Shown in pieces: positions 7,795 to 39,633 of a stretch of DNA of 64,000 bases. Each line of letters opens with the position of its first letter. The first letter of the stretch is position 1. Below the pieces are notes generated by a model. The model saw only the letters and a list, made by a program, of their open reading frames with translations, was not told the origin of the DNA and made no database searches. Made by a program: the position numbers and the translations under genes. The stretch comes from Meiothermus ruber DSM 1279. Lineage in GTDB: Bacteria; Deinococcota; Deinococci; Deinococcales; Thermaceae. The stretch covers positions 1,612,001 to 1,676,000 of the forward strand of contig NC_013946.1 of NCBI RefSeq assembly GCF_000024425.1, given 5' to 3'.

Positions 7795-8622
7795 ATGCAC
7801 GTTTTTCGCCTGCGCGGCAACTTCGAAACCCTCGATATCTACTCGGCGGCGCTGTTTGAGCTGGGCGCGCGGGGTCTGGAGGAAAAACCCGGCGAGGTCT
7901 GGGCCTACTTCCCCGAGCGCATCGAGCTGCCGTTTCCGGGGGAGTGGCAGGAGCTCCCCGATACCGACTGGCTCGAGGCCTACAAGCGCGACCTGCAGCC
8001 GGTGCGGGCCGGGCCCTTTGTGGTGCTGGCCCCCTGGCATACCTGGGAGGGCCCGGAAAAACCAATCGTCATTGAGCCGGGCATGGCCTTTGGCACCGGC
8101 CACCACGAGACCACCCGCATGGCTCTGGAAACCCTGGCTGAGCGGGTTGAACCGGGGATGCGGGTGCTGGATCTGGGCACCGGCTCGGGCATTCTGGCTA
8201 TCGGGGCCGCGCTGCTGGGGGCCGAGGCGCTGGGCATCGACATCGATCCCGCGGTGATCCCCCAGGCCATCGAGAACGCACGGCGCAACCAGGTTAAGGT
8301 GCAGTTCCAGGTGGGCAGCCTGGACGAGGCCTACGACCCCCTGGCCGAGACCGCACCACAAGCCCCCCCCGCCCAGCCGGCCCCAACGCCCCTGGTGCAG
8401 GGCCCGTTCGACCTGGTGGTGGCCAACCTCTACGCCGAGCTGCACACCTACTTCGCCCAAAAATACCGGGAGCTTTTCGGCATCTGCGGAACCCTGATTC
8501 TCACCGGTATCCTGGCCGAGCGGGAGGGAATTGTGAAGAGCGCCCTCGAGGCCGCCGGCTTCGGGCTGCTGGCCCGCCGGCAGGAAGGCGAGTGGGTCTG
8601 CCTGACCTACGCCGCCCGCTGA
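7795..8622 (+). CDS. prmA: Ribosomal protein L11 methyltransferase
   Basis: A 275-residue SAM-dependent methyltransferase that methylates ribosomal protein L11. The N-terminal L11-recognition domain (about 1-55) is followed by the catalytic domain with GMAFGTGHHETTRMALE, the SAM motif VLDLGTGSGILAIGA, GIDIDP and the family-specific DLVVANLYAEL. An unusual Ala/Pro/Gln-rich segment of roughly 25 residues (around positions 178-204) separates motif III from DLVVANLY, making the protein longer than Thermus PrmA. The rsmE gene starts 5 bp after its stop, a common prmA-rsmE pairing. Confidence 0.93.
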   Translation: MHVFRLRGNFETLDIYSAALFELGARGLEEKPGEVWAYFPERIELPFPGEWQELPDTDWLEAYKRDLQPVRAGPFVVLAPWHTWEGPEKPIVIEPGMAFGTGHHETTRMALETLAERVEPGMRVLDLGTGSGILAIGAALLGAEALGIDIDPAVIPQAIENARRNQVKVQFQVGSLDEAYDPLAETAPQAPPAQPAPTPLVQGPFDLVVANLYAELHTYFAQKYRELFGICGTLILTGILAEREGIVKSALEAAGFGLLARRQEGEWVCLTYAAR

Positions 8623-34199: not shown

Positions 34200-34460
34200 A
34201 TGAAGCTTCACCTAGTGCGGCTGGCTAAGCGCCAGGGACAGGCGCGCTTTCCGGGCCTCGAGGGTTTTTGCACGCTCCTGATGGAAAAGCCCCAAGAAAT
34301 AGAGGGGCCGCGCCTGTACGTGCTGCTCGAGGGCGAGCTGGTGATAGACCTCCCCGACCACAGCTACCTGCACCTGCGCAAAGGCGAAGGGGCGCACCTA
34401 CAGGGCCCCCATAAAATAACCCCCATCGATCCCAGCGTGGTGGCTGTGTGGAACCCCTGA
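34200..34460 (+). CDS. Small cupin-like protein
   Basis: An 86-residue single-domain beta-rich protein. The pattern LYVLLEGELVIDLPDHSYLHLRKGEGAHL resembles the second half of a cupin barrel, with a His in HSYLHL and another in GPHKITP; the canonical four metal ligands are not all recognisable. It begins 15 bp after the topA stop and is likely co-transcribed. Function unknown. It is followed by the first MNT-HEPN module. Confidence 0.65.
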   Translation: MKLHLVRLAKRQGQARFPGLEGFCTLLMEKPQEIEGPRLYVLLEGELVIDLPDHSYLHLRKGEGAHLQGPHKITPIDPSVVAVWNP

Positions 34461-34466
34461 GGGTGC

Positions 34467-34472
34467 TAGCAT
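34467..34472 (+). promoter_or_regulatory. Leaderless -10 box (TAGCAT) of the first MNT gene
   Basis: GTGCTAGCAT followed by 6 nt and ATG; the same ten bases precede the second MNT gene, so the promoter was duplicated with the module. Confidence 0.55.
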
Positions 34473-34478
34473 AAAAGC

Positions 34479-34790
34479 ATGAACCACCCCGAGCTACAGC
34501 CGGTATTAGAGCGCATTCTGGAGGTGGTGCCGGCCCAGCAGATTATTCTCTTTGGCTCGAGGGCCAAAGGCCAGGCCCGCCCAGACAGCGATTACGATTT
34601 GCTGGTGGTGGTGCCGCCCGAACTGCCCAAACGCCCTACCGCCCAGTCCATCCACCGGGCTTTGCTGGGGCTGCTGGTGCCTGTTGATCTGGTGGTGGCG
34701 CATCCAGCCGACCTGGAGCGCTACCGCACCGCCTGGATGACCATTTATCCGGAAGCGCTGCAGGGCGGACAAGTGCTGTATGCGGCCTGA
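34479..34790 (+). CDS. MNT-type minimal nucleotidyltransferase, module 1
   Basis: A 103-residue protein with the nucleotidyltransferase core FGSRAKGQARPDSDYDLLV: the GSxxxG helix start and the D-x-D metal pair, plus a third Asp in VDLVVAHP. Such minimal transferases pair with HEPN proteins; in the MntA-HepT system the transferase neutralises the toxin by adding AMP. Here the HEPN gene overlaps by 11 nt. The 5' half is nearly identical in DNA to the second module's MNT gene, indicating a recent duplication. Confidence 0.85.
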   Translation: MNHPELQPVLERILEVVPAQQIILFGSRAKGQARPDSDYDLLVVVPPELPKRPTAQSIHRALLGLLVPVDLVVAHPADLERYRTAWMTIYPEALQGGQVLYAA

Positions 34791-35172
34791 TTCCACCGAC
34801 CCCCAAGCCTGGCTGGCTCGAGCCAAGAGTAATCTGGCCCTGGCAGCTGCCGGCCCTATCACTCCTGAGGTTTACCTCGAGGATCTCTGCTTTGAGGCCC
34901 AACAAGCTGCTGAAAAAGCCCTCAAAGCCTTGTTGATCGCACACAATGTCCCCTTTCCTCGCACCCATGCTATAGGGCTGCTGCTTTCCTTAGTGCAAAC
35001 CCATGTTCTAGAGCCACCTACCGGTGTGCTCGAGGCCGCCCAGCTCACTCCCTATGGCACCCTGGGCCGCTACCCCGGCGAGGACGACCCCGTGACCGAG
35101 GACGAGTACCATAAAGCCCTCGAGCTCGCCCAGCGGGTGGTGGCCTGGGTGGAGGCACAGATGGCGTGCTAG
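34780..35172 (+). CDS. HEPN-domain protein, module 1
   Basis: A 130-residue four-helix HEPN protein of the PF05168 type: WLARAKSNLALA, DLCFEAQQAAEKALKALLIAH, PFPRTHAIGLLL and a late RYPGEDDP segment before the final helix. The R-x(4-6)-H ribonuclease motif of HepT-type toxins is not evident, so nuclease activity is uncertain. It overlaps the MNT gene by 11 nt in another frame. Toxin or nucleotide-binding partner function is inferred from pairing only. Confidence 0.82.
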   Translation: MRPDSTDPQAWLARAKSNLALAAAGPITPEVYLEDLCFEAQQAAEKALKALLIAHNVPFPRTHAIGLLLSLVQTHVLEPPTGVLEAAQLTPYGTLGRYPGEDDPVTEDEYHKALELAQRVVAWVEAQMAC

Positions 35173-35175
35173 CAT
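35170..35175 (+). promoter_or_regulatory. Leaderless -10 box (TAGCAT) of the second MNT gene
   Basis: TAGCAT overlaps the stop codon of the first HEPN gene and lies 6 nt before the ATG at 35182, so the second module can be transcribed separately. Confidence 0.55.
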
Positions 35176-35181
35176 ACAGAC

Positions 35182-35499
35182 ATGGAATACCCCGAGCTAA
35201 AGCCGGTATTGGAGCGCATTCTGGAAGTCGTACCGGCCCAGCAGATTATTTTGTTCGGCTCGAGGGCCAAAGGCCAGGCCCGCCCGGACAGCGATTACGA
35301 TTTGCTGGTGGTGGTGCCAGAAGAGTACATCACCCTAGAAAACTATAAAGCGCTGTACCGCTGCCTCGGCCAGGTCAGGCGAAGCTTTGGGGTAGATTTG
35401 ATTCTGACTACACCCGAACAGCTCGAGCGCGCGCGCAAGGCTTGGATGCCCCTCTATTCCGAAGCGCAGCACAACGGTCAGATTGTGTATGCCGGGTAA
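35182..35499 (+). CDS. MNT-type minimal nucleotidyltransferase, module 2
   Basis: A 105-residue paralogue of the first MNT protein with the same core FGSRAKGQARPDSDYDLLV. After the core it differs (EEYITLENYKALYRCLGQVRRSFGVDLILTTPEQL), keeping the third Asp in VDLILT. Divergence in the part that would contact the HEPN partner suggests partner specificity. It overlaps the second HEPN gene by 11 nt. Confidence 0.85.
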   Translation: MEYPELKPVLERILEVVPAQQIILFGSRAKGQARPDSDYDLLVVVPEEYITLENYKALYRCLGQVRRSFGVDLILTTPEQLERARKAWMPLYSEAQHNGQIVYAG

Positions 35500-35875
35500 G
35501 GGCAACAACCCCAAAGCCTGGTTGCTGCGGGCTAAAGGCAGCCTGGCCCGCGCCAGCGCAGGCCGCCTCGCCCCAGAAATTCTTTACGAAGACCTCTGCT
35601 TCGACGCGCAGCAAGCTGCCGAAAAAGCCCTCAAGGCCCTGCTGCTGGCACACCACCAGCCCTTCCCCAAAACACACGACATCGGCCTCTTGTTGCAGCA
35701 GTTGGAAGCAGCGGGCATGGCCTTACCGGAGGAGATCAGAGCTGCCGAGGTGCTGTCTTTTTACGCCGTGGTAACCCGCTACCCAGGGGATTACCCCGAT
35801 CTGGATGAAGCCGCTTACCTGGAAGCCCTCGAGCTCGCCCAGCGGGTGGTGGCCTGGGTGGACAAGCAACTTTAG
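35489..35875 (+). CDS. HEPN-domain protein, module 2
   Basis: A 128-residue HEPN protein with DLCFDAQQAAEKALKALLLAH, FPKTHDIGLLLQQL and RYPGDYPDLDEAAY, matching the first copy in layout. As there, no R-x(4-6)-H motif is seen. The ATG at 35489 is preferred to a TTG two codons earlier and reproduces the 11-nt overlap of module 1. It ends 22 bp from the convergent mfd gene. Confidence 0.82.
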   Translation: MPGKGNNPKAWLLRAKGSLARASAGRLAPEILYEDLCFDAQQAAEKALKALLLAHHQPFPKTHDIGLLLQQLEAAGMALPEEIRAAEVLSFYAVVTRYPGDYPDLDEAAYLEALELAQRVVAWVDKQL

Positions 35876-35897: not shown

Positions 35898-38861
35898 TCA
35901 ACCCACCAGGTACAGCACCTCGCTCAGGGCCTGCACATACTCCTCGGGCCGCAGGCCTTTTTTGGGGATGCGGAAGCCGGGGGGGTACTGGGTGGGCTCG
36001 ACCCGGAAGGGCAGGGCCCGCAGGGCTTTGGCGTCGTAGTCGAGGGCGGAAGTCTGGAAGGCGATTTGCAGGTGCAGCATGTCCTCGGTGATGGAGACCA
36101 CCCCCCGGCCCTCGGCCAGCAGGCGCAGGCGGGTGAGGGCCAGGAAGTTCTCCACCTCCTGGGGGGCCGGGCCGTAGCGCTCCTTGAGTTCTTTGACCAG
36201 GCGGGCGAGCTGGGCCAGGTTTTTGCACTCGGCCAGGCGGCCATAGTAGCGGCTGCGGGCCGCGGGGCTCTGGATGTACTCCGGGGAGAGCCGGGCCGAG
36301 AGCTGAAGGTCGAGGGTCACGTGGCGCTCAGGTTCGGTTTGTTCGCCCTTTAGCTTGCGGATGGCCTCGGAGAGCAGCTCGGTGTAGATTTCCAGGCTCA
36401 CCGCGCGGATGTGGCCGTGCTGCTCGGGGCCCAGCAGGTTGCCCACCCCGCGGATTTCCATATCCTTTTCGGCCAGCAGGTGGCCGGAGCCCAGGTCGGA
36501 AAGGTCGGCGATGGCGGCCAGGCGGCGTTCGGCCCCTTCGGTGAGGCGCAGGGGGTGGAAGAGGTAGGCCCAGGCCTCCTGGTCGCGCCGCCCCACCCGG
36601 CCCCGGAGCTGGTACAGCGCGGCCAGGCCCAGCTTATCGGCCCGCTCGACCAGGATGGTGTTGGCCTCGGGGATGTCGAGGCCGGACTCGATGATGGTGG
36701 TGGCTAGAAGTACATCGAAAGCCCCCTCGGCGAAGGCCAGCATGGTCTCCTCCACCTCGGCCTCGGGCATCTGCCCGTGCACCACCCCAAAACGGGCCTC
36801 GGGCACCAGGGCTTCCAGGTAGCGGCGCCGGGCCAGGATGGTGGCGACCCGGTCGTGCACGTAGAAGGCTTTGCCGCCGCGCTCGAGCTCGTCCATGATG
36901 CCCTGCCGCACCAGGGCCGGATCGTAGGGGGCCAGCAGGGTGCGGATGGGCTTGCGGCCGGGGGGCGGGGTCTGGATGCTGCTGAGGTCGCGCAGGCCCA
37001 CCAGGGCGCTGTAGAGGCTGCGGGGGATGGGGGTGGCCGAGAGGTAGAGGGTGTCCACGGCCTCTTTGAGTTCGCGGATGCGCTCCTTCTGCCCCACCCC
37101 GAAGCGGTGCTCCTCGTCCACTACCAGTAGGCCCAGGTCCTTGAAGCGCACGTCGGGCGAGAGCAGGCGGTGGGTGCCGATCACGATGTCTACTGTGCCC
37201 TGCTCGAGGCCCCGCAGCACCTCGCGGGTCTCCCGCTCCGAGGTGAAGCGCGATAGCGCCGCCACCCGCACCGGCAGGCCCTCCAGACGCTTCTGAAAGG
37301 TCTCCTTGTGCTGCTCGGCCAAGAGGGTGGTGGGCACCAGCACCGCCACCTGGGCCCCATGCCCCACCACCCGGAAGGCCGCCCGCAAGGCCACCTCGGT
37401 CTTACCGAAGCCCACGTCGCCTGAGATCAGGCGTTCCATGGGCCGGGGGGCCTCTAGGTCGCGCAGGGTCTCCTCGAGGGCCTTCCGCTGGTCGGGGGTG
37501 AGCTCGAAGGGAAAGTTTTGCTCAATCAGAACGTCCCACTCAGGCAGCGGCCCAAAAGCCCGGCCCGGCGTGGCCTCGCGCTTGGCGTGCAGCACCAGCA
37601 GGCGCTGGGCCAGTTCTTCCGCATCTTTGGCAGCTTTCTCGCGGCTCCGCTTCCACTCGCCCTTGCCCAGCGAGGAAAGCGCCGGGGGGTCGTCGGTGGT
37701 GCCAGGGTGGCGCTTCAGGAGCGGGAGTTGCTCGACCGGCAGGTACATGCGGGCCTCACCGGCGTAGCGCAGCACCAGGTAGTCGCGCTGGGCCCCCAGC
37801 ACCTCGCGGGTCTCCAGGCCCAGGTACTGGCCGATGCCGTGCTCGGGGTGGATCAGGTAGTCGCCCACGGCCAGGGCGCCGGGGTCGGTCTCTTCGGCAG
37901 AGAGCAGCTTGCGGCTGCGCAGCACCTCGGCCCCACCGAAGGCGTACAGGTGGGCCTCGCTCAGGTAGACGGTGCGGCTTTGGGGCTCGAGGAAAGCCCC
38001 TTCGAAGGAGGCCGGTACCAGGTTGAGGCTGCCGGGCCGGGGGCCCAGGGTGGGGGTGGAGACCACGGCCAGGTCGGGGTACCGGGCCTGAAGCTTGGAG
38101 AGCAGGTAGTTTCGGCTCTTGACGTGGCGATAAAAGAACACCACCGACCAGCCCGCCCCCACCCAGTTATGCACATCCTCGACAAACTGGGAGATGCGGG
38201 CCCGGTAGGGGGGCAGGGGCTTGTAGTCCAGGGACAGGGTGGGCAGTTCGGGCCCTCCCAGGCCAAAGGCCACCCGATCCCGCCCGGCCAGCAAAGGCCA
38301 CAGCGCCTCCGGGGCCAGGGCCGGGGTGTCGAGGAAGACCGGGCCGGGGAAGTGCAGAATCTTGTGGGAGTCCCAGGCCTCGGCCTTGCCTGCGCGGGCC
38401 GTCAGGACGTGGCGCTGGCGGGGCTGGCCGTCCACCTTGAGCACCTCGAGCTCGTCGCCAAAGAACTCGAGGCGCACCTCGCCCAGCTCGAGGACGTCCC
38501 CCTGCACCCGATAGTCCTCTTCGCGCAGGTAGCCCATGCGCAAAAGCCGTTCCAATAGTTCGTCGCGCAGGTAGCGGCGGCCCACCTCGAGCACCAACCG
38601 CCAGTCTTCGGGCCGGGCCGGAAAGCCCTCGAGGGCCTCGCGGTAGCTCATCACCACCACCTCGGCCTCGCCGATGGCCTCCAGACCAGGGTTCACATAG
38701 GACGAGACCCCCAGCGCGCTCAGATCGGCGTACAACCCCAGCCGCTCCTCGGGGCAGAGCAGCACCCGGGGGCCATGATGCTGGGCAAAGATCAGCGCGC
38801 GGGCCACCTGGGGCAGGCCGGGCAGGTAGTGGTTCAGGACAGAGGGCTCGGTAAGGTTCAT
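35898..38861 (-). CDS. mfd: Transcription-repair coupling factor
   Basis: A 987-residue Mfd, which releases RNA polymerase stalled at DNA lesions and recruits UvrA. Order: UvrB-homology region (about 1-320), RNA polymerase-interacting domain (about 330-390, VGDYLIHPEHGIGQYLGLE), RecG-like translocase with Walker A GDVGFGKT at about 481-488, a DEEH box, SATPIPRSLY, the QLRGRVGR helicase motif VI, and the C-terminal D7 domain. Slightly shorter than E. coli Mfd, as in Thermus. The ATG at 38861 begins a plausible N-terminus; no ribosome-binding site is seen, fitting a leaderless start. Confidence 0.95.
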   Translation of the reverse strand: MNLTEPSVLNHYLPGLPQVARALIFAQHHGPRVLLCPEERLGLYADLSALGVSSYVNPGLEAIGEAEVVVMSYREALEGFPARPEDWRLVLEVGRRYLRDELLERLLRMGYLREEDYRVQGDVLELGEVRLEFFGDELEVLKVDGQPRQRHVLTARAGKAEAWDSHKILHFPGPVFLDTPALAPEALWPLLAGRDRVAFGLGGPELPTLSLDYKPLPPYRARISQFVEDVHNWVGAGWSVVFFYRHVKSRNYLLSKLQARYPDLAVVSTPTLGPRPGSLNLVPASFEGAFLEPQSRTVYLSEAHLYAFGGAEVLRSRKLLSAEETDPGALAVGDYLIHPEHGIGQYLGLETREVLGAQRDYLVLRYAGEARMYLPVEQLPLLKRHPGTTDDPPALSSLGKGEWKRSREKAAKDAEELAQRLLVLHAKREATPGRAFGPLPEWDVLIEQNFPFELTPDQRKALEETLRDLEAPRPMERLISGDVGFGKTEVALRAAFRVVGHGAQVAVLVPTTLLAEQHKETFQKRLEGLPVRVAALSRFTSERETREVLRGLEQGTVDIVIGTHRLLSPDVRFKDLGLLVVDEEHRFGVGQKERIRELKEAVDTLYLSATPIPRSLYSALVGLRDLSSIQTPPPGRKPIRTLLAPYDPALVRQGIMDELERGGKAFYVHDRVATILARRRYLEALVPEARFGVVHGQMPEAEVEETMLAFAEGAFDVLLATTIIESGLDIPEANTILVERADKLGLAALYQLRGRVGRRDQEAWAYLFHPLRLTEGAERRLAAIADLSDLGSGHLLAEKDMEIRGVGNLLGPEQHGHIRAVSLEIYTELLSEAIRKLKGEQTEPERHVTLDLQLSARLSPEYIQSPAARSRYYGRLAECKNLAQLARLVKELKERYGPAPQEVENFLALTRLRLLAEGRGVVSITEDMLHLQIAFQTSALDYDAKALRALPFRVEPTQYPPGFRIPKKGLRPEEYVQALSEVLYLVG

Positions 38862-38993: not shown

Positions 38994-39242
38994 ATGGTGC
39001 GCACCCAGATTCAGCTCGAGGAAGCGCAATGGCAACAGCTACGGGAGATAGCCCACCGCGAGGGCATCTCCATAGCAGAGGCCGTGCGCAGGGCCGTAGA
39101 TAACATGCTGGAAGAAAAACAAAAAGCCTACCGCTGGCGCAAAGAACAGGCCCTGGGCGTGGTGGGGCGCTTTGCTTCGGGCCTGCAGGATGTGAGCGAA
39201 AACCACGACCGCTACCTGGAGAAAGCCTTTGACCCTCGTTGA
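38994..39242 (+). CDS. Ribbon-helix-helix antitoxin (VapB/CopG type)
   Basis: An 82-residue protein with an N-terminal RHH domain: strand VRTQIQLEEAQ, helix WQQLREIAHREG, turn, helix SIAEAVRRAVDNML, then a charged C-terminal tail expected to wrap the toxin. It binds DNA as a dimer and represses its own operon in known systems. The stop overlaps the toxin gene start by 14 nt. Confidence 0.82.
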   Translation: MVRTQIQLEEAQWQQLREIAHREGISIAEAVRRAVDNMLEEKQKAYRWRKEQALGVVGRFASGLQDVSENHDRYLEKAFDPR

Positions 39243-39633
39243 CACCTCGGCCCTGTATGCCCTCCTAGATCGAGATGACCAAAACCATCCAGAGGCCAAA
39301 GAACGCTGGGAGATGCTCCTGGAAGAAGGCGAGCCCCTTTGCACACACACCTATGTGGGGGTAGAAATCACTGCCCTGGTACAGCGTCGGCTGGGGATAG
39401 AGGCCGTGCGCGCGCTCGAGGCGCTGATGGGCGTGATAACCTTATACCCAGTGAGCCTGGCCCTGCATCAGCAGGCGTTGGCTGCCTTGCTTAGCGCCGG
39501 GCGCCGCGAGGTAAGCCTGGTAGACTGGGTGAGCTTTTTGTGGATGCGAGAGCAAAATATCCGCCAGGCTTTCGCTTTTGATCAACATTTCCTCGAGCAG
39601 GGGTTCACCAGCCCCCCTTCCAAAACACCATGA
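39229..39633 (+). CDS. PIN-domain toxin (VapC type)
   Basis: A 134-residue PIN endoribonuclease. Acidic active-site residues are D5 (TLVDTSAL), E46 (YVGVEITAL), D99 (VSLVDWVSF) and D118 (FAFDQHF). The only plausible start is a TTG at 39229, inside the antitoxin gene by 14 nt; no ATG occurs before conserved residues. The stop overlaps the ATG of the next, unrelated glycosyltransferase-like gene by 4 nt, so the toxin-antitoxin pair is translationally coupled to a biosynthetic gene. RNA target unknown. Confidence 0.85.
   Translation: MTLVDTSALYALLDRDDQNHPEAKERWEMLLEEGEPLCTHTYVGVEITALVQRRLGIEAVRALEALMGVITLYPVSLALHQQALAALLSAGRREVSLVDWVSFLWMREQNIRQAFAFDQHFLEQGFTSPPSKTP

Follow-up and report, generated by a model that had tools for sequence, protein, structure and literature searches.

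A stretch of 64,000 nucleotides (nt) of Meiothermus ruber DSM 1279 (contig NC_013946.1, positions 1,612,001 to 1,676,000; hereafter the window) contains two gene pairs in tandem, MNT1-HEPN1 (module A, 34463-35172) and MNT2-HEPN2 (module B, 35166-35875). The explanation we favour, with a probability of roughly 0.55, is that these are two old class II HEPN/MNT pairs whose ends have been homogenised, in which the C-terminal half of the MNT (C-half) and the HEPN are exchanged as linked parts, and in which the HEPN would be a toxin and the MNT its antitoxin. Sequence comparison indicates that the promoter with antitoxin codons 1-46, and likewise the HEPN 3' end, are homogenised by homologous recombination, and that downstream of MNT codon 46 the two modules represent distinct old classes. 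The parts of the two modules are the following (positions in the window; aa, amino acids).

34463..34472, + strand: GTGCTAGCAT of module A, TG-n plus -10 box TAGCAT (34467-34472), 6 nt ahead of the ATG of MNT1; predicted leaderless-mRNA promoter
34463..34615, + strand: constant arm of module A (promoter plus MNT1 codons 1-46), 138/153 nt identity to 35166-35318; maximum likelihood breakpoint after MNT nt 137
34479..34790, + strand: MNT1, 103 aa; PF01909 42.8 bits; GSx10DxD intact
34616..35113, + strand: variable cassette of module A (MNT1 C-half plus most of HEPN1), 34-76% identity per 50-nt window to module B; an old class other than that of B
34780..35172, + strand: HEPN1, 130 aa; PF05168 83.4 bits
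35114..35153, + strand: identical 40-bp block at the HEPN 3' end, copy A, from comparison of HEPN1 and HEPN2
35166..35175, + strand: GTGCTAGCAT of module B, TG-n plus -10 box TAGCAT (35170-35175), 6 nt ahead of the ATG of MNT2; promoter predicted to be leaderless
35166..35318, + strand: constant arm of module B (promoter plus MNT2 codons 1-46), with the stated identity to the arm of module A
35182..35499, + strand: MNT2, 105 aa; PF01909 42.9 bits; GSx10DxD intact
35319..35822, + strand: variable cassette of module B (MNT2 C-half plus most of HEPN2), orthologous in genome G016 and in M. taiwanensis; B orthologues 72-100% identical per 50-nt window
35489..35875, + strand: HEPN2, 128 aa; PF05168 84.1 bits; ATG at 35489, overlapping MNT2 by 11 nt
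35823..35862, + strand: identical 40-bp block at the HEPN 3' end, copy B, from the same comparison

Both MNTs belong to PF01909/PF18765 and both HEPNs to PF05168, with Pfam cut-offs of 21 bits for PF01909 and 22 bits for PF05168. The copies are alike at their ends and diverged between them: identity in successive 50-nt windows is 0.84, 0.88, 0.98, 0.34, 0.40, 0.68, 0.62, 0.62, 0.64, 0.76, 0.44, 0.40, 0.50 and 0.88, i.e. 0.84-0.98 over nt 1-150, 0.34-0.76 over nt 150-650 and 0.88 in the next 50 nt. The initial annotation of this DNA had described shared promoters, the same 11-nt gene overlap, near-identical MNT 5' halves and a diverged middle part, and all of these were recovered, the sliding identity being non-uniform along the modules; the promoter element of module A starts at 34463 and not at 34467, and the identical block near the HEPN 3' ends is present but 40 and not 38 bp long. 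According to a two-segment maximum likelihood fit, A/B identity drops after MNT nt 137 (2-lnL range 134-138; log-likelihood difference 33.9). The drop was placed at MNT nt 137 also for modules B and C of M. taiwanensis (taiB and taiC; range 135-137) and for the modules of genomes G025 and G045 (range 133-137).

The homogenisation of the MNT 5' half is evident at silent sites and is strongest in M. taiwanensis. Among codons specifying the same residue, 34/42 are identical in the N-terminal half (N-half) of the MNT versus 8/19 in the C-half for A/B, 43/44 versus 9/18 for taiB/taiC, and 42/43 versus 18/30 for G025/G045, whereas between distant modules the value for the N-half falls as low as 14/34 (A versus G047). 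This contrast between near and distant modules at silent sites indicates that more than protein constraint keeps the N-half alike. Trees, Mantel tests and residue counts were based on a HEPN alignment (A1) of 14 of the 15 intact modules, comprising no broken ones and leaving out G029 (locus L014), and on an MNT alignment (A2) of 18 of 21 modules, leaving out G029, G036 and G027. In approximately unbiased (AU) tests, the B orthologues were rejected as a clade for MNT codons 1-46 (p=0.009) and a taiB+taiC clade was rejected for the MNT C-half (p=0.0026); in a GENECONV-like shuffle, the taiB/taiC run of 22 polymorphic sites had p=1e-4. Rejected as well were an A+B clade of the HEPNs (AU p=0.006) and a grouping of A with class B in the MNT C-half (AU p=0.017), the C-half of module A being nearest to modules of another genus (60%). 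Distances of the MNT C-half correlate with those of the HEPN over 14 modules with a Mantel r of 0.80 (partial 0.76 given the N-half), as against 0.52 (partial 0.39) for the N-half. Module A has a 2-residue gap in common with G012 and G007, yet a group of MNT-A with these two was rejected (p=0.039).

Upstream of each MNT start, TGC-TAGCAT is followed by 6 nt. Exactly two copies of the element are present in the window (34463 and 35166; 0.08 expected), and the longer pattern TGCTAGCATANNNNCATG occurs twice in the whole 3.1-Mb genome (3,097,457 bp), both times at these modules. The -10 box of module B includes the HEPN1 stop codon TAG (35170-35172), and the HEPN-B stop and following promoter of M. 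taiwanensis are arranged alike. TANNNT was found beside the MNT start at 17 of the 18 MNT loci examined, the exception being G022, in which the MNT start is altered. Excerpts of PMC12340547 describe leaderless promoters with a TANNNT -10 motif adjoining open reading frames (ORFs) for Deinococcus-Thermus, and the position of TANNNT next to the MNT starts fits these promoters of the phylum.

MNT2 has a match at E<=1e-8 in 22/50 genomes of the family; at E<=1e-10, matches were found in 19/111 Deinococcota genomes, which together hold 21 modules, all in Thermaceae, the family of the window, and a scan of a genome-contig collection gave 2 loci, both Thermaceae. HEPN2 had no match in plasmid and phage collections (tblastn, E<=1e-3), and other possible MNTs in the M. 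ruber genome are only remote (best further match E 2.7e-4, 40%). The insertion site of the two modules is bounded as follows.

34200..34460, + strand: 86-aa ORF (ORF86) located 3' of topA, left flank of the insertion site; no Pfam match; adjoins mfd without a module in G005
35898..38861, - strand: mfd, right flank of the insertion site, convergent; named from sequence reading

In M. taiwanensis DSM 14542 (G021, locus L034) the gene order at this site is topA-ORF86-B-C-mfd, with MNT-C 71% identical to MNT1 and HEPN-C 47-50% identical to HEPN1 and HEPN2. In G016, module B adjoins mfd and has a stop within HEPN-B; just upstream of it lies sequence like the 3' end of HEPN-A, followed by unrelated sequence, and because of this HEPN-A-like remnant G016 probably once carried A-B. 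ORF86 is directly beside mfd, with no module, in G005. With A-B, B-C, remnant-B and empty states among relatives, the topA/mfd site is therefore polymorphic. ORF86, for which Pfam, NCBIfam and PADLOC searches gave no match, neighbours topA in M. ruber as well as in 6/6 relatives searched with it (69-97%). In G016 a chromosome rearrangement ends within the HEPN-A 3' block (L096, ~7850-8400), so that topA and ORF86 are 53 kb away, and its ORF86 is just 79% identical while Mfd is 97% identical.

A second site lies next to a hemW-like gene. Genus g4, probably Thermus, and G049 (genus g5) carry modules between this gene and a glycerate kinase-like gene (gck; its name was read from the sequence). 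In Calidithermus roseus (G004), G007 and G012 a module lies between an alpha/beta hydrolase gene and the hemW-like gene; in M. ruber hydrolase and hemW are adjacent and module-free. One g4 site is occupied by either of two classes, C or D. Between G025 (class D) and G045 (class C) the flanks are mostly 97-100% identical, apart from one upstream window at 0.73 and a few at 0.87-0.93, and the interior is 0-80% identical; beside hemW, G025 also retains, as a remnant, 24 codons from the 5' end of another MNT. Two further states were seen between gck and hemW: G031 carries a DUF433/DUF5615 (PIN-like) pair, another toxin-antitoxin-like module (L129:804-1459, - strand), and G023 (L118) a decayed MNT remnant in which GSRARGEA is still readable and no HEPN is left.

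As stated in the initial annotation, neither HEPN1 nor HEPN2 contains an R-x(4-6)-H motif; the HEPNs of taiB and taiC have a stray RPFPKTH at another position. That the proteins may therefore not be RNases does not follow, since the consulted parts of PMC3710099 describe the absence of Rx4-6H as characteristic of PF05168 HEPNs: HEPN-T proteins such as AF0298 lack its His but retain the Arg together with another conserved His, and might nevertheless cleave RNA. As this absence is known in the class, and His63, Arg97 and Tyr98 are conserved, RNase activity is not excluded. Q42, E45, K46, H63 and Y98 are found in 14/14 HEPNs and R97 in 13/14, and GSx10DxD in 17/18 MNTs, the exception being G045, where the serine of GS is lost and the HEPN is broken. 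The AlphaFold2 model of HEPN2 (predicted local distance difference test score, pLDDT, 91.7) is closest to the folds 1ufb, 1wol, 2hsb and 1o3u (Z 15.5-18.7; 1ufb 18.7), followed by HepT chains (Z about 10; 6m6u Z 10.6) and HI0074 (1jog, Z 6.7); Z is 7.5 to AbiV, an RNase according to its PDB title, which is in the tool's unspecific range for helical folds. The MNT model (pLDDT 86.5) is closest to 8xeo, the MNT antitoxin of Legionella pneumophila (template modelling score 0.74; species from PMC11586414), and the MNT profile matches HI0073 (1no5, E 3.2e-5; Foldseek rank 20).

The pattern of gene decay, counted over all 21 modules, points in the same direction as the favoured reading. Both genes are intact in 15 modules; four have an open MNT frame with a broken HEPN (G016, G044, G045 and G022, the lesions being a stop, a 3' deletion, an internal in-frame deletion including the FPKTH segment, and a deletion with frameshift, respectively); in G036 both are broken, and in G027 the MNT is frameshifted and the HEPN cut off. 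A broken MNT with an intact HEPN was found in 0/21 modules. HEPN is thus broken before MNT, 4 to 0, the direction expected if HEPN is toxic and MNT the antitoxin.

In the favoured reading, homogenisation proceeds by gene conversion in tandem arrays and by exchange of alleles between strains at single-copy sites, and the unit varying between loci is the MNT C-half linked with the HEPN. The HEPN would be a growth-inhibiting toxin and the upstream MNT its antitoxin, whose catalytic half, located in the constant arm with GSx10DxD, may transfer AMP to the HEPN with Tyr98 as candidate acceptor; the HEPN itself may act on RNA via the conserved His63/Arg97 (or Gln42/Glu45). We propose that C-half and HEPN travel together because the C-half recognises its cognate HEPN. 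Exchange might then renew toxin/antitoxin specificity at a fixed locus, with phage inhibitors or competing alleles as possible selective agents. Taken together, these are ordinary genes of a known class with a predicted function in an unusual evolutionary state: the tandem mosaic is real, is older than the initial annotation assumed and belongs to a family-wide pattern of joint change of toxin and antitoxin tail behind a constant front half. A broader view, which we hold tentatively and at somewhat less than even odds, is that the class II loci in Thermaceae serve to switch specificity by means of a split antitoxin, in which a constant arm (promoter and catalytic half) is combined with an exchangeable cassette (recognition half and toxin). 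In two genera or more, this cassette would be replaced as one unit with the switch at MNT codon 46, while tandem arrays would keep several specificities and convert their arms. If true, this would show how a small antitoxin enzyme can acquire further toxin partners with no unprotected stage in between. The mosaic predicts which part of the MNT carries partner specificity, and the natural allele pairs A/B, B/C and class C/D are ready-made material for toxin-antitoxin tests.

Several observations weigh against the favoured explanation. Conversion and partner diversification, as proposed initially, are supported by silent sites, incongruent trees and the relatives, but not by the A/B run-length test in M. 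ruber alone, which was non-significant (p=0.22 for a longest run of 6 sites; p=0.15 at third positions). In three end blocks, A and B agree against both other B copies at 1, 0 and 2 sites, and 3, 0 and 1 sites favour orthology. The A/B homogenisation in M. ruber is older than that of taiB/taiC and dates from about the split between M. ruber and M. taiwanensis. The fixed switch point may simply be where sequence homology ends. The MNT C-half of module A groups with class C (99/97) and HEPN-A does not (AU p=0.065), so that the exchange of C-half and HEPN may not be joint in every case. The corresponding partner swap, joining a class C-like C-half in MNT-A to a non-class C HEPN-A, is suggestive at this p value, and we do not claim it. 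The asymmetry of decay, 4 to 0, carries little weight (one-sided 0.06 at even odds, ~0.09 weighted by gene length), and one of the four, G045, has an MNT that itself lacks the Ser of the GS motif. The structural models are of monomers, so that the MNT-HEPN interface is outside their view, and the consulted parts of PMC7641770 (2020) knew no biochemical study of class II pairs, whose toxicity was then untried.

How the mosaic came about can be explained in other ways. A recent tandem duplication followed by conversion and fast divergence of the middle, as assumed in the initial annotation, accounts for head-to-tail copies with common ends but is very improbable, because outside these ends A and B fall into different old classes according to the AU tests, because M. 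taiwanensis and G016 already possess B, and because the C-half of A has its nearest relatives in another genus; the 11-nt overlap, found in 9/9 modules checked across the family, is therefore no sign of recent duplication. We consider it no more credible that no recombination took place and that a strongly constrained N-half, which bears the catalytic motif and is itself conserved in all modules, is joined to a fast-evolving C-half and HEPN: N-half identity at same-residue codons is 81-98% inside a locus or among close relatives and only ~41-53% between distant modules, and neither the conflicting trees nor the taiB/taiC run agree with constraint only. Import from other strains via homologous ends by natural transformation, with tandem copies stemming from such imports and little conversion within genomes, is a real possibility, if not the one we would expect, and compatible with the favoured explanation. 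It fits the G025/G045 genus, where single-copy sites hold either class C or class D, switch at the same point and lack another full copy from which to convert, and the presence at one site of A-B in M. ruber and B-C in M. taiwanensis; on the other hand, B and C of M. taiwanensis have their own common N-half (136/138 nt), for which intragenomic conversion is simpler, and both processes may act.

With respect to function, the pairs might constitute a two-subunit nucleotidyltransferase like the one proposed for HI0073/HI0074, whose HEPN would bind the substrate without being toxic; variable C-halves and HEPNs would then reflect changing substrates. The profile match of the MNT to HI0073 is in line with this, as is the missing Rx4-6H motif, which HEPN domains fused to nucleotidyltransferases typically lack according to the consulted parts of PMC3710099. 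We nevertheless regard it as rather unlikely, given that the HEPN was lost before the MNT in 4/4 half-broken modules, that the HEPN fold most resembles those of stand-alone PF05168 proteins (1ufb) and not that of HI0074, and that H63, R97 and Y98 are conserved.

The surroundings of the modules had initially been read as a small defence island around mfd with adjacent VapBC. VapBC-like ORFs do exist, a ribbon-helix-helix ORF at 38994-39242 and a PIN ORF at 39229-39633 (both + strand, divergent from mfd), but they lie beyond mfd, ~3 kb away. An island is unsupported, since the modules are flanked by topA, mfd and other genes without a defence role; further nearby ORFs read from the sequence are fumarase-like and superoxide dismutase-like and also non-defence. 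PADLOC, run on part of the window proteins, matched the MNTs alone (PDC-S09 and weaker models). The weaker reading of a toxin-antitoxin-prone site has some support, because in a relative, G015, a HepT/MntA pair (class I) lies right at the mfd 3' end (L101:4688-5510, - strand; NCBIfam 114 and 84 bits; RNLLVHEY). An MNT like the one of this pair is located at the mfd 3' end also in L100, L107 and L109 (G012, G018 and G009) and in L099 (G007).

Compared with known systems, the M. ruber pairs are best placed in class II of the HEPN/MNT pairs and are probably toxin-antitoxin modules. In the consulted parts of PMC7641770, class II combines PF05168 with PF01909, lacks RX4HXY, keeps GSx10DxD and a conserved Tyr, and is common in archaea and hyperthermophiles. 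The pairs described here have the same Pfam combination, GSx10DxD, no RX4HXY, the MNT gene first and a conserved Tyr (Y98, 14/14, which may not be the Tyr of that paper); they differ by the tandem array, the homogenised antitoxin 5' halves and the exchanged C-half and HEPN, an arrangement of which we found no earlier description in the literature searched, part of it consulted in excerpt. HepT/MntA (type VII, class I, PF01934) has the HEPN fold, the MNT fold and motif and the gene order in common with them, but the M. ruber HEPNs lack the RX4HXY that the control HepT in L101 contains, and against the NCBIfam HepT/MntA equivalogs the HEPNs gave no match at E<=0.01 and the MNTs 39.4 and 39.1 bits, below the cut-off of 60. 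The L. pneumophila HEPN-MNT system shares a Gln-x2-Glu in HEPN helix 2 (Q44/E47 there, a metal site according to the consulted parts of PMC11586414; Q42/E45 here, a lead by sequence only), and its HEPN, in contrast, has RX4HXY. The PF05168 structures 1ufb (TT1696), 1wol, 1o3u and 2hsb are alike in fold (Z as given above), and their entry titles name no function. Similar in principle are the partner-swapping PanA toxin-antitoxin networks, in which a constant antitoxin part is combined with changing toxins; as far as the consulted parts of PMC10440598 go, a whole antitoxin domain and unrelated toxins are involved there, whereas in Thermaceae the boundary runs within a small enzyme and the fold of the putative toxin stays constant.
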